Shown here: positions 2,650 to 5,838 of the stretch, one piece after another | How positions within the stretch are numbered: the stretch's first letter is position 1 | Layout: each line of letters begins with the position of its first letter | Source of the DNA: Patescibacteria group bacterium | GTDB lineage: Bacteria > Patescibacteriota > Patescibacteriia > UBA2591 > PGYQ01 | Direction: 5' to 3' | Assembly (NCBI GenBank): GCA_020057535.1 | Contig: JAGVFS010000051.1 | Location: 1 to 5,838, forward strand | DNA: 5,838 bases | Notes under the pieces: generated by a model | Seen by the model: only the letters and a program-made list of their open reading frames with translations | Told to the model about the DNA's origin: nothing | Databases searched by the model: none | Position numbers and translations under genes: made by a program

Positions 2650-2739
2650 AATTATAAATTAATTTTTATGTTAATTGTTTTTTTATGTTTAATTCAAAAA
2701 AGTTTTCTAAAAATAATATTCAAATCGCTAGCTTTTTAA
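2647..2739 (+). CDS. 30-residue hydrophobic mini-ORF overlapping the PP2C-like gene
   Basis: The frame encodes 30 residues (MNYKLIFMLIVFLCLIQKSF..., stop TAA 2737-2739), with a hydrophobic stretch over residues 5-16. It owns the best ribosome-binding site in the window. Its codons GTT TTT TTA contain the heptamer TTTTTTA (2679-2685). A -1 slip there continues directly as ATG TTT AAT, the start of the 746-residue frame. Three readings are possible: a leader peptide that couples translation of the next gene by termination and re-initiation, a true -1 frameshift extending the large protein by about 13 residues, or a one-base sequencing loss in the T7 run (2678-2684), since eight Ts would fuse the frames. 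It matches no family I recognise. Confidence 0.45.
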   Translation: MNYKLIFMLIVFLCLIQKSFLKIIFKSLAF

Positions 2740-4925
2740 TTAATAATCCAAAATTAACTGAAACATGGGGAAATGTTTATATTGTTGAACCTTCAAATGA
2801 ACGAGAAGCAAAACTGGGACAATTGATAATTTTAGTCGCTCTTTCTGATTTTTCTTCTAAAACATCGCAAAAAGAAATTATTGAGCGAATGATTAAAGAG
2901 ATGCAAGTCAATTATTATCGTTCGGATGTAAATAAAGAAAATTTAAATATCGAAGAAATTTTTGAAACGATTTTGCAAAAAGCTAATCAAGAATTTGCTA
3001 AAATTATAAGAATTAGCCAAAATAATTGGTTTAAAAAAATAAACATACTTGTGGCAATAGTAAAAAATGAATCAATTTATTTTGCTCAAATTGGAGAGAT
3101 TTTTTCAGCTTTTTTAATTAATGAAGATAGAATTATTGATATTATTGAAAAAGTTAGAGCAAACAATATTCCGTTTAACCCATTAAAATTATTTTCTTCA
3201 ATTACAAACGGTTCGATCAGCGTTAACGATAATATTTTTTTTACTTCTTCTGGAATTTTTGATTTTATTGCTTCAGAAAAAATAAAAAGAATTATCAATG
3301 ATTGGGAAGTTAATTCGGCTATTTCAAAATTTCAAAATCTTTTAAGTAATTTAAAAACAAAAAATATTTTTGCCGGAGTAATAATTAAAAATAGTTTTTT
3401 AAACAAAAAGAATGAAATTAAAACAATAAAATTAGCTCAAAAGAATAATTCTTTATTTGAATTAGCTAATCAAAGAGAAAAAACAGATAAAATTCTTAGG
3501 CCTTCATTTTTATCGAATTTATTAAAAATTCAAAAAAAATGGTTAAGTTTATTTTCTAATTGGCAAATAAAATTTCACAAAAAAATAAATTCTTCGCCTT
3601 CTAGCGTGGCATTAGATTCTGTTGGAAAAATTTCTTTAATGCCTAACTCTTTTTATGATAAGCCGTGGAATATTTTAAAAAAATGTGGAATAAAAAAAGA
3701 ACTTTCTATTTACCAACCAACAGGGGAAGAAAAAAAGCATTATTTATCATTTATTACTCGTTGTCCATTTTTATTAAAATGGACAAATAAATTTAAATCA
3801 TTCTCTTTTTTAAGTAAAATATTATTTATTTCCGCTTTAATTTTGGCTTTGTTTTTGGTTTATAGCGTCATTTGGTTAGCTAGAAAACAAACTAAAGATA
3901 ATCAAATTAAAGAGAATAAACAATTGCTTGAAAAAATAGAAAGTAAACAAAACGCTGTTGGCGCTGCTTTAATTTATAAAGATAAAAAAAAGGCTGGAAA
4001 AACTTTAGAAGAAATTTTAAAATTATCTGAAAAAATATCAAAAGATTCTCCTGAAAATTTAGCAAAACTTCAAAAAATTCAAAAAGAAACAGAGATTCAA
4101 CTCAATCAATTAAGAAATATTACAGTGATTGAAAATCCTTTAATGGTAACAGATTTAAATCTTTTAAGTTCTAATTCGTCTCTTAGCGAAGAGAAATTTA
4201 ATTTAGTTTTTTTAAACCAGCAACTTTATTTTTACAATCAAGATAATTCAATTTTTAAATTTGATTTTAAAGAAAAAAAGATTTTTTCTATTTTTAAGGA
4301 TTTACAAGAGAATAAATCATTTGAGAATGCAAAATCATATGATAAAAATTCTATTTTATTTTCTAATGCTAATGAAATAATTAAATTTAATATTCTCAAT
4401 AAAAATTTAGAATCAATAGACCTTAAATTACCAGTTGAAACTAAAAAAATTGAAGATTTTGTTGTTTATTCTCAAAAAATTTATTTACTTGATTCGGAAA
4501 ACAATCAAATTTATAAATATTATCCAACACAAACCGGTTTTGGAGAAAAAAATAATTGGCTTAAAGATGAGCAAATTAATTTAAATGAAGGGGTTTCAAT
4601 GGCTATTGATGGCGCTATTTATGTTTTAAAATCCAATGGAGAAGTTTTAAAATTTATTCAAGGTAAAAAACAAGAATTTGTTTTAAAAAATCTTGAATTG
4701 GCTTTAAAAAATCCAACCAAAATTTGGACAAGTTTTAATTCTAAATATATTTATATTTTAGATCCTTCAACTAAAAGATTAATAATTTTTGACAAGCAAG
4801 GTAAAGTTCAAAAACAATATACTTCTGAAAAATTTATTCAGTTGAAAAATTTTGTTGTTAATGAAGAAAAAAATAAACTTTATATTCTTTCCGATAATAA
4901 AGTTTATGAATTGAAGGTTGAATAA
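2685..4925 (+). CDS. Membrane-anchored PP2C-like pseudophosphatase with coiled coil and beta-propeller
   Basis: This is a 746-residue protein. Residues about 22-236 look like a PP2C/SpoIIE-type phosphatase fold. IYFAQIGEIF (131-140) corresponds to the family's vanvGDSR strand and NDNIFFTSSGIFDFI (181-195) to its D.lLL.SDGlwd motif. The metal-binding Asp residues are missing (GD to GE, SDG to SSG), and no DGHG-type motif is visible, so catalysis is unlikely. A basic linker leads to one membrane helix (379-399, from ILFISALILALFL). After it comes a Lys/Glu-rich coiled coil (about 400-465), then about 500-746 with repeating strand patterns (IYLLDSENNQIYKY, IYVLKSNGEVLKF, IYILDPSTKRLIIFD, LYILSDNKVYEL) fitting a roughly six-bladed beta-propeller. 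The likely topology is N-terminus in the cytoplasm and propeller outside, suggesting a signal-transducing or scaffold protein (inference). ATG 2685 is the only ATG available in frame after the TAA at 2655-2657. The tRNA-Trp gene follows closely and may be co-transcribed. Confidence 0.7.
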   Translation: MFNSKKFSKNNIQIASFLINNPKLTETWGNVYIVEPSNEREAKLGQLIILVALSDFSSKTSQKEIIERMIKEMQVNYYRSDVNKENLNIEEIFETILQKANQEFAKIIRISQNNWFKKINILVAIVKNESIYFAQIGEIFSAFLINEDRIIDIIEKVRANNIPFNPLKLFSSITNGSISVNDNIFFTSSGIFDFIASEKIKRIINDWEVNSAISKFQNLLSNLKTKNIFAGVIIKNSFLNKKNEIKTIKLAQKNNSLFELANQREKTDKILRPSFLSNLLKIQKKWLSLFSNWQIKFHKKINSSPSSVALDSVGKISLMPNSFYDKPWNILKKCGIKKELSIYQPTGEEKKHYLSFITRCPFLLKWTNKFKSFSFLSKILFISALILALFLVYSVIWLARKQTKDNQIKENKQLLEKIESKQNAVGAALIYKDKKKAGKTLEEILKLSEKISKDSPENLAKLQKIQKETEIQLNQLRNITVIENPLMVTDLNLLSSNSSLSEEKFNLVFLNQQLYFYNQDNSIFKFDFKEKKIFSIFKDLQENKSFENAKSYDKNSILFSNANEIIKFNILNKNLESIDLKLPVETKKIEDFVVYSQKIYLLDSENNQIYKYYPTQTGFGEKNNWLKDEQINLNEGVSMAIDGAIYVLKSNGEVLKFIQGKKQEFVLKNLELALKNPTKIWTSFNSKYIYILDPSTKRLIIFDKQGKVQKQYTSEKFIQLKNFVVNEEKNKLYILSDNKVYELKVE

Positions 4926-4950: not shown

Positions 4951-5026
4951 GCGGGTGTAGCTCAATTGGTAGAGCGCTGGTCTCCAAAACCAGAGGTTCC
5001 AGGTTCAAGTCCTGGCTCCCGTGCCA
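4951..5026 (+). tRNA. tRNA-Trp (CCA anticodon)
   Basis: The 76-nt cloverleaf includes an encoded 3' CCA. The D arm is GCTC/GAGC, the anticodon stem CTGGT/ACCAG with loop CTCCAAA (anticodon CCA), and the T arm CCAGG/CCTGG with loop TTCAAGT. The discriminator is G73, as expected for bacterial tRNA-Trp. The acceptor stem (GCGGGTG against CTCCCGT) has a G1-U72 wobble and a U6-U67 mismatch. It begins 25 bp after the upstream stop with no promoter between, so read-through from the PP2C-like gene is plausible. In many bacteria tRNA-Trp precedes secE-nusG; here it does not. Confidence 0.95.
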
Positions 5027-5088
5027 AAAAAAACAATAAATTAAAATTATTAATAAGAAAAATGGTAAATATATTTTTTTAAAATTAA

Positions 5089-5193
5089 TGTGGATAACTC
5101 AGAGTAATTCTGTGGATAACTATGTGGATAAATAAAAAATATATTATATTTCTTTATTTTTATAAATATAAAAATATTTTTTTAAATTTATTA
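5089..5193. other. Candidate replication origin: three DnaA boxes plus AT-rich unwinding region
   Basis: TGTGGATAA, the exact complement of the consensus DnaA box TTATCCACA, occurs at 5089-5097, 5111-5119 and 5123-5131, all in the same orientation with start-to-start spacing of 22 and 12 bp. Immediately after, 5128-5193 has a single non-A/T base (C at 5152), which suits a DNA unwinding element. Established knowledge: clustered same-strand DnaA boxes beside an AT-rich tract are the hallmark of bacterial oriC. No dnaA, dnaN or rpmH gene is in view, so a DnaA-titrating or DnaA-regulated promoter site remains possible. No clear DnaA-trio was picked out by eye. Confidence 0.65.
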
Positions 5194-5240
5194 GTCTTTT
5201 TTCGGCTAAGTTAAGGAAAAATAAAACAACAATGAATTAA

Positions 5241-5269
5241 TTGACAAAAATTTTTATAAGGGGTATTAT
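5241..5269 (+). promoter_or_regulatory. Near-consensus sigma-70 promoter for the terminal gene
   Basis: TTGACA (5241-5246), a 17-bp spacer and TATTAT (5264-5269) give a near-ideal promoter, the best in the window. Initiation is expected near 5276, leaving a leader of about 50 nt before ATG 5327. A palindrome overlaps its -10 and start point, which suggests strong but repressible expression. Confidence 0.7.
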
Positions 5270-5290
5270 TTAACTAAATTTAGTTAAATA
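5267..5290. promoter_or_regulatory. 24-bp perfect palindrome, likely operator
   Basis: The half-site TATTTAACTAAA (5267-5278) is followed directly by its exact reverse complement (5279-5290). It covers the last bases of the -10 and the expected transcription start, the classic position for a repressor operator. In RNA it would be a weak AT-rich hairpin without a T-tract, so a terminator role is unlikely. The repressor is unknown; the half-site does not resemble the AGAATTC sites at the regulator gene. Confidence 0.6.
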
Positions 5291-5326
5291 TTAAAAATAA
5301 ATCCGTATTTATAAAATTATTGTATT

Positions 5327-5838
5327 ATGGATTTAACAAAAGGAGAAAAAAATAAAAATCAAAAAGAATTTTTTGTATTTTTTAAAAATATGAAAGGTTT
5401 TTTGTTTTCAAATTTTTTTAAAAAACAAATGGTCTGTATTTTAATAATTGCAGGCTTTTTTTATTTTTCTTTTGTTCCTAAAGTTTATGCCATACCATTT
5501 CCAGTTAATACAGAAAAAATGATAGAAAATTTTAAAGAGACAATAGTAAATTTATTTGAATTTGAAAAAGATACAACTAAAAAAACCACACCAAAAAATA
5601 TTGCAAAACAAGAAGAGGCAAAGAAAGAATTACCAAGCGCAATTTTTTCAGAAATAGTTGAACCAATAATGCCAACAACAATTAAACCAGCGATAGTTGA
5701 ATTTAAAAAAGAAATAGTAGAAGGAATAAAAGAAACAGTAAAAAAGATTTTTAATCCAAAAATTTTTAATTCTAAAACAGAAGAGTCTAAAACAGAAGAG
5801 TCTAAAACAGAAGAGTCAAAAACAGAAGAGTCTAAAAC
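5327..5838 (+). CDS. Secreted or membrane-anchored protein with KTEES repeats (partial, 3' end missing)
   Basis: The frame is open from ATG 5327 to the window edge (170 codons visible). Residues 1-34 are basic and polar, and 35-50 form a hydrophobic core (MVCILIIAGFFYFSFV) followed by PKVYA, then IPFP. This reads as a signal peptide with a long n-region and probable cleavage after Ala55, or as an uncleaved anchor. Residues 60-148 are Lys/Glu-rich with amphipathic patterns (EFKKEIVEGIKETVKKIF). From residue 150 it becomes a perfect KTEES pentapeptide repeat. No family is recognised. There is no Shine-Dalgarno site before ATG 5327; the AAAGGAG at about 5338 is inside the gene and too far (about 45 nt) from the next in-frame ATG (5390) to set a different start. 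Export to the envelope or outside is inferred from the N-terminus. Confidence 0.75.
   Translation, partial: MDLTKGEKNKNQKEFFVFFKNMKGFLFSNFFKKQMVCILIIAGFFYFSFVPKVYAIPFPVNTEKMIENFKETIVNLFEFEKDTTKKTTPKNIAKQEEAKKELPSAIFSEIVEPIMPTTIKPAIVEFKKEIVEGIKETVKKIFNPKIFNSKTEESKTEESKTEESKTEESK
5774..5838 (+). repeat. 15-bp in-frame tandem repeat encoding KTEES
   Basis: AAAACAGAAGAGTCT repeats in tandem from 5774, with four full copies and the start of a fifth at the window end. Only one base changes (TCA for TCT in copy 3). The near identity at DNA level points to recent expansion by slippage. Total copy number cannot be known from this window. Confidence 0.9.

Follow-up and report, generated by a model that had tools for sequence, protein, structure and literature searches.

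A DnaA-box array beside an A/T tract in a Patescibacteria contig: a candidate promoter-regulating site rather than an origin

Does a tight cluster of DnaA boxes next to an almost pure A/T tract mark the chromosomal origin of a patescibacterium, or does it serve another function? The initial annotation of the DNA analysed here had favoured the origin, with a DnaA control or titration site as its fallback. The window is the whole contig C44 (5,838 bp) of the assembly G000, which comprises 523 kb in 84 contigs. It was compared with genomes of the same genus (G001, G002 and G003) and with genomes of the same order that are represented by long contigs (G004, G014 and G020).

The array and its neighbours

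Three exact copies of the 9-mer TGTGGATAA lie at 5089-5097, 5111-5119 and 5123-5131 on the same strand, separated by gaps of 13 and 3 bp and covering 43 bp in total. Box 1 (5089-5097) reads TTATCCACA on the minus strand and TGTGGATAA on the plus strand. Boxes 2 and 3, likewise exact and on the minus strand, form a tandem double box (5111-5131). The array adjoins a 66-bp A/T tract (5128-5193), the single G/C base of which is a C at 5152. Both the count of three co-oriented 9-mers within 43 bp and the 66 bp with one non-A/T base had been claimed before, and both are confirmed. No other 66-bp stretch with at most one G/C was found in the window, and none in 81,960 bp from ten other contigs, nine chosen as box-bearing and one as dnaA-bearing. 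Consensus boxes adjoining an A/T-rich element are found at oriC; the array is also a strong noncoding box cluster, as at a datA-type titration site, and includes a tandem pair 2-3 bp apart, as at DnaA-regulated promoters.

Three chance matches this close had been called very unlikely, and the calculation bears this out: with independent bases, 523 kb should contain about 1e-7 same-strand triples that span no more than 43 bp, and 9e-7 if the genome's own box rate is used. The 9-mer occurs 12 times in G000 and the reversed word twice, and the triple is the strongest same-strand cluster of exact boxes in this genome. Three same-strand boxes with gaps of up to 30 bp were present in 4 of 97 genomes searched (G000, G001, G025 and G061). 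The array of the more distant G025 lies at 18766-18812 of its contig C2 (L016/L018), and the more distant G061 has two near-identical copies on different contigs (L014, L017).

The neighbours of the array are also as first described, with a tRNA-Trp gene upstream (4951-5026, plus strand) and an ORF with a hydrophobic N-terminal segment starting at 5327 downstream. An Rfam search of the window matched the tRNA alone. Upstream of the tRNA and the boxes lies an ORF of 746 aa (2685-4925), for which no Pfam match was found; the named relatives of its product come from one Candidatus Kuenenbacteria MAG and one Patescibacteria MAG. Of 26 genomes searched, 25 have a homolog of this ORF, and a TsaB-like gene and the mraZ cluster are frequent neighbours. 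At 216-783, the window contains four 43-nt repeats carrying the palindrome GTGTTAACAC, and one inverted copy near 228-262. These repeats are interspersed with TTTCTCTTA runs and adjoin a perfect 22-nt inverted repeat at 776-820.

Downstream of the array, a sigma-70-type promoter is predicted at 5241-5269 on the plus strand (TTGACA at 5241-5246, a 17-bp spacer and TATTAT at 5264-5269), with the boxes at offsets of -148, -126 and -114. A palindrome at 5264-5293, with 15-nt arms that are 93% complementary, covers the -10 element and the start region. The ORF that follows (5327-5838, plus strand) is predicted to encode a secreted or surface protein; its 5' part is present, and the contig ends within 15-bp SKTEE repeats. 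Its G003 homolog has an open frame of at least 961 aa, and the sole Pfam match of this homolog was Pectinesterase, below the cut-off.

Conservation of the array and position of the origin

Conservation of the boxes in relatives had been proposed as a check, and the outcome was divided. G001 has all three boxes with the spacings of the window and with the same box-to-promoter offsets, in a block, including the A/T tract, that is 80% identical. In G002 and G003 there are no boxes at the tRNA-Trp gene, so that only two of the four genus genomes carry them at this site, which is not the conservation in close relatives expected of oriC. Linkage of the boxes to the tRNA is thus inconsistent. In G002, the 746-aa protein is 94% identical and tRNA-Trp is kept without a box at that site. 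Near position 3318 of G002:C45 (L030), similarity beyond tRNA-Trp breaks off inside box 1, where TTAATGTGG gives way to unrelated DNA; a gene that by eye is SMC-like follows the divergence point, which is either a rearrangement breakpoint or an assembly join.

In G003, tRNA-Trp immediately precedes a different ORF and the box cluster sits on another contig (C12). There, two exact boxes lie upstream of the surface-protein homolog, one of them 2 bp away from a third box that has one mismatch; A/T-rich DNA and an aligned TTGACA also precede the homolog. Of 18 genomes, G000 and G003 were the two in which the surface-protein gene itself was detected. It was not found in G001, where the contig stops 262 bp past the conserved block, and neither the gene nor the boxes were found in the G002 assembly. 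The boxes are therefore kept with the promoter in G001 and with the gene and TTGACA in G003, as expected of a DnaA-regulated promoter. These comparisons, although few in number, suggest that the element tracks the promoter and the gene, not the tRNA.

In G004, G014 and G020, GC skew changes between mostly negative and mostly positive values at a point 4-5 kb upstream of dnaN (the profiles of G004 and G020 were sampled, not whole). The switch was placed at 115.5 kb of G004:C1 (L222-L223), 65 kb of G014:C3 (L201) and 196.6 kb of G020:C1 (L211). An S1-domain gene and ftsH are preceded by a divergent gap; the skew minimum of G014 falls within this gap, and those of G004 and G020 no more than 300 bp from it. 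No cluster of TTWTNCACA boxes was found within 7 kb of the skew switch in these genomes. An oriC beside dnaA was rejected as well, because dnaA is in the positive arm in all three, at a distance of 72-156 kb from dnaN. Tandem boxes do precede dnaA in several families; TTATCCACA-like and 2 bp apart, they lie immediately upstream of the gene (L113, 10782-10812; L108, L116, L119). These boxes, far from the skew switch, likely serve autoregulation.

In G003, dnaN and rpmH are adjacent on C18, a contig of only 12 kb, and the cumulative skew reaches its minimum inside dnaN. On C1, where tRNA-Trp sits at about 31.7 kb, the 5-kb bins over 0-110 kb form an arm in which 20 of 22 are positive. The two negative bins include the one immediately ahead of tRNA-Trp, which is followed by a positive bin. 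On C12, the contig with the homologous box cluster, all nine 2-kb bins are negative or about zero. The short stretches that entered the skew comparison carry little weight, having been selected around dnaN; those of G013 and G006 have their minimum near the end, and the G016 stretch was profiled but left out of the combined dnaN comparison. In the G000 assembly (84 contigs), dnaN and rpmH were not found. The window has no change of skew sign near 5.1 kb, and a simple scan of 5031-5340 on both strands found no DnaA-trio run. Among the relatives open to this test, the profiles of G004, G014, G020 and G003 place the skew switch elsewhere than at such an arrangement.

Boxes at promoters across the order

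Exact boxes are mostly noncoding, in 11 of 12 cases in G000 (counted on 11 of its 84 contigs, one of them partial, ten with boxes and one with dnaA), 6 of 9 in G003, 6 of 10 in G004, 3 of 5 in G014 and 2 of 3 in G020. Letter permutations of the box are noncoding in 9-23% of cases, below the exact boxes in all five genomes tested. Among the noncoding boxes of the genus (G000-G003), 17 of 52 lie 10-24 bp upstream of a predicted -35 element, as against 573 of 36,687 random noncoding positions (1.6%). The corresponding figures for other families are 15 of 36 and 1,448 of 52,170 (2.8%), for a set taken from the surroundings of dnaA, dnaN and the 746-aa gene, a frequent neighbour of mraZ. The 20 of 72 exact genus sites that were counted as coding were excluded from this count and from the second-box count below.

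The offsets from the -35 element cluster at about -10 to -15 and again at about -19 to -24, two groups that differ by roughly one turn of the helix. When look-alike contexts were collapsed, 14 of 32 genus families had a box 10-24 bp upstream of a predicted -35, with the reservation that the collapsing is crude and merges some unrelated A/T-rich contexts. Conversely, 14 of 218 strong predicted promoters in G003, G004, G014 and G020 have a box with at most one mismatch at this place, and five control words together occur there at 2 of 218. Judged by this placement, the TGTGGATAA 9-mer is a promoter element in this order. No paper on DnaA boxes at Patescibacteria promoters was found, judging from search listings. 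The window array, 114-148 bp from its promoter, lies outside the usual place of 10-24 bp. Four box sites of G001 are copies of one repeat at contig ends; the same sequence ends C42, C45, C57 and C120 (L248, L250, L252, L261), so that a repeat element seems to carry a DnaA box.

The 17 promoter-box pairs of the genus lead to rRNA in five cases and to an ORF within 550 bp in seven; in five, neither was found. The rRNA cases are 23S in G000, G001, G002 and G003, and 16S in G002. Beyond the genus, exact boxes lie upstream of 23S in G005, G014 and G004 but not in G013, which brings the 23S promoters with such boxes to 7 of 8 genomes with a fetched 23S start (23S and 16S loci with boxes: L028, L241, L274, L138, L268, L103, L198, L218). 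No exact box precedes 16S at the G014 and G004 loci, and the 16S locus of G003 carries TGTGGAAAA. This word is permitted by the DnaA-box consensus TTWTNCACA (PMC12371093) and is likewise over-represented. Some apparently gene-less promoters were thereby assigned to rRNA, which raised the probability that we give to DnaA as a growth regulator to a value still short of even.

The ORFs behind box-bearing promoters include tuf and a TrpR-like gene in G000, dksA-like genes in G002, G004 and G014, and genes for a T4SS pilin, an RRM protein and, behind a tRNA, cysS in G001. They further include L10-like (rplJ) genes in G004, G015, G021 and G008, and lexA in G017; names of targets that lack a Pfam hit were assigned by eye. 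In G000, G001 and G003, the rplJ box is near the start site rather than upstream of the -35. We rejected fba and atpC as targets because the predicted promoters point away from both genes, and groES and mnmA because no promoter is predicted toward them.

The spacing of paired boxes bears on the identity of the binder. A second box 2-3 bp from the first was found 11 times in the genus (0.51 expected; identical contexts dropped, 50 of 52 kept) and 13 times in other families (0.37 expected), with each pair counted from both sides and 12 of the 13 non-genus pairs coming from mraZ or dnaA loci. E. coli DnaA prefers box pairs 2 or 3 bp apart and mostly loses binding when a base is added between paired boxes (PMC11317965). 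A single DnaA match was found in G000, and it includes a DnaA_C DNA-binding domain. The simplest binder of the 9-mer would therefore be DnaA. In mraZ leaders of the order, TGTGGATAA and TGGGGATAA occur at a distance of 12 bp from each other and follow the predicted promoter (L145, 1400-1445; L087, L096, L097, L098); these repeats may be either an MraZ operator or a DnaA double box.

Function of the array

In the best reading, to which we give an even chance, 5089-5131 is a DnaA-binding array and not an origin; it would regulate the promoter predicted at 5241-5269, in front of the predicted surface-protein gene that begins at 5327. DnaA would bind the double box with its 3-bp gap (5111-5131) along with box 1, and the A/T tract, which we propose aids contact between array and promoter, would let the DnaA complex reach RNA polymerase 114-148 bp downstream; that bending of the tract bridges this distance is a guess. 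Expression of the surface protein would then follow the DnaA level or the DnaA ATP state. Observed directly are the sequence, its conservation with the promoter in G001 and with promoter and gene in G003, and the presence of the 9-mer at many promoters of the order. DnaA as the binder, its action on the surface-protein gene and the sign of the effect are what we infer, the action because the array is outside the usual 10-24 bp. This distance is the weak point of the promoter-switch reading. DnaA can activate or repress promoters (PMC8203912, PMC11317965). Known DnaA-regulated promoters (E. coli nrdAB, dnaA, uvrB and purH; the Caulobacter regulon) have consensus TTATCCACA boxes, often in tandem 2-3 bp apart, like the window. 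The boxes of this order differ from them in occupying two preferred places upstream of the -35 and in preceding rRNA and translation genes; the window array lies farther upstream.

Next in rank after a promoter-regulating array comes a datA-type site for DnaA titration or control, a noncoding cluster that soaks up DnaA and leaves the neighbouring gene unaffected, which we regard as rather unlikely. The strength of the cluster, its noncoding position and its distance of 114-148 bp from the next promoter agree with such a site, and E. coli datA is likewise noncoding, with strong boxes clustered upstream of the gene yjeV (PMC11317965). Unlike datA, the window gives no evidence of nucleotide hydrolysis or IHF binding, and its boxes stay with promoter and gene, as in G003; exact boxes of the order moreover concentrate at promoters. 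Between them, the control and titration readings that had been the fallback of the initial annotation are favoured by the evidence. Lower still, and improbable, is an operator of MraZ or another regulator with a DnaA-box-like site. The TGTGGATAA and TGGGGATAA pairs of the mraZ leaders point that way, as do the GTGG-containing direct repeats, with a period of about 12 bp, that the window shares with the MraZ boxes of the mraZ-mraW operon. The window has no copy of TGGGGATAA, with its GTGGGG, and its boxes lie upstream of the predicted promoter instead of downstream as in the mraZ loci shown. No MraZ domain was found in the ORF downstream of the array, where an MraZ operator would have mraZ. We set this operator aside because no mraZ was detected in the two genus genomes that have the triple (G000 and G001), although absences from draft genomes prove little.

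That the array is the chromosomal origin is unlikely, and we place last an origin that was relocated in the species of G000, and perhaps G001, relative to the rest of the order. Like an oriC with an A/T-rich unwinding element, the triple of consensus boxes adjoins a nearly pure A/T tract, the only one of its kind in about 88 kb. The missing dnaN and rpmH leave the origin of G000 itself unplaced, the skew-switch regions of relatives lack a consensus-box cluster, and the skew of G003 turns from negative to positive in the bins at tRNA-Trp. Against a relocated origin, the skew switch lies near dnaN in G004, G014 and G020, and weakly so in G003, and the array is neither there nor beside dnaN and rpmH. 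The block is missing from the assembly of G002 despite its 94% identical neighbouring protein, the homologous cluster of G003 is on the contig with nine negative or near-zero bins, and the window shows neither a sign change near 5.1 kb nor, in the simple scan, a DnaA-trio run. The position of the switch near dnaN and the lack of conservation at the tRNA-Trp site led us to set aside an oriC at the array, and the main claim of the initial annotation is thus not supported.

A wider reading, to which we give somewhat less than an even chance, is that DnaA acts in this order as a global, promoter-bound growth regulator. With boxes placed one or two helical turns ahead of the -35, the promoters of rRNA, tuf, rplJ and dksA-like genes would tie ribosome synthesis to the initiator, the origin defined by skew would have no consensus-box cluster, and the triple of the window would be the strongest array of the network, controlling a giant surface protein. 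If this is true, the textbook signature of oriC misleads here, since consensus boxes would mark promoters, not the origin, and programs that locate origins by clustered boxes could annotate such genomes wrongly. An uncultured group would gain a testable regulon, with the replication initiator at rRNA promoters, and with it a handle on the coupling of growth and replication.
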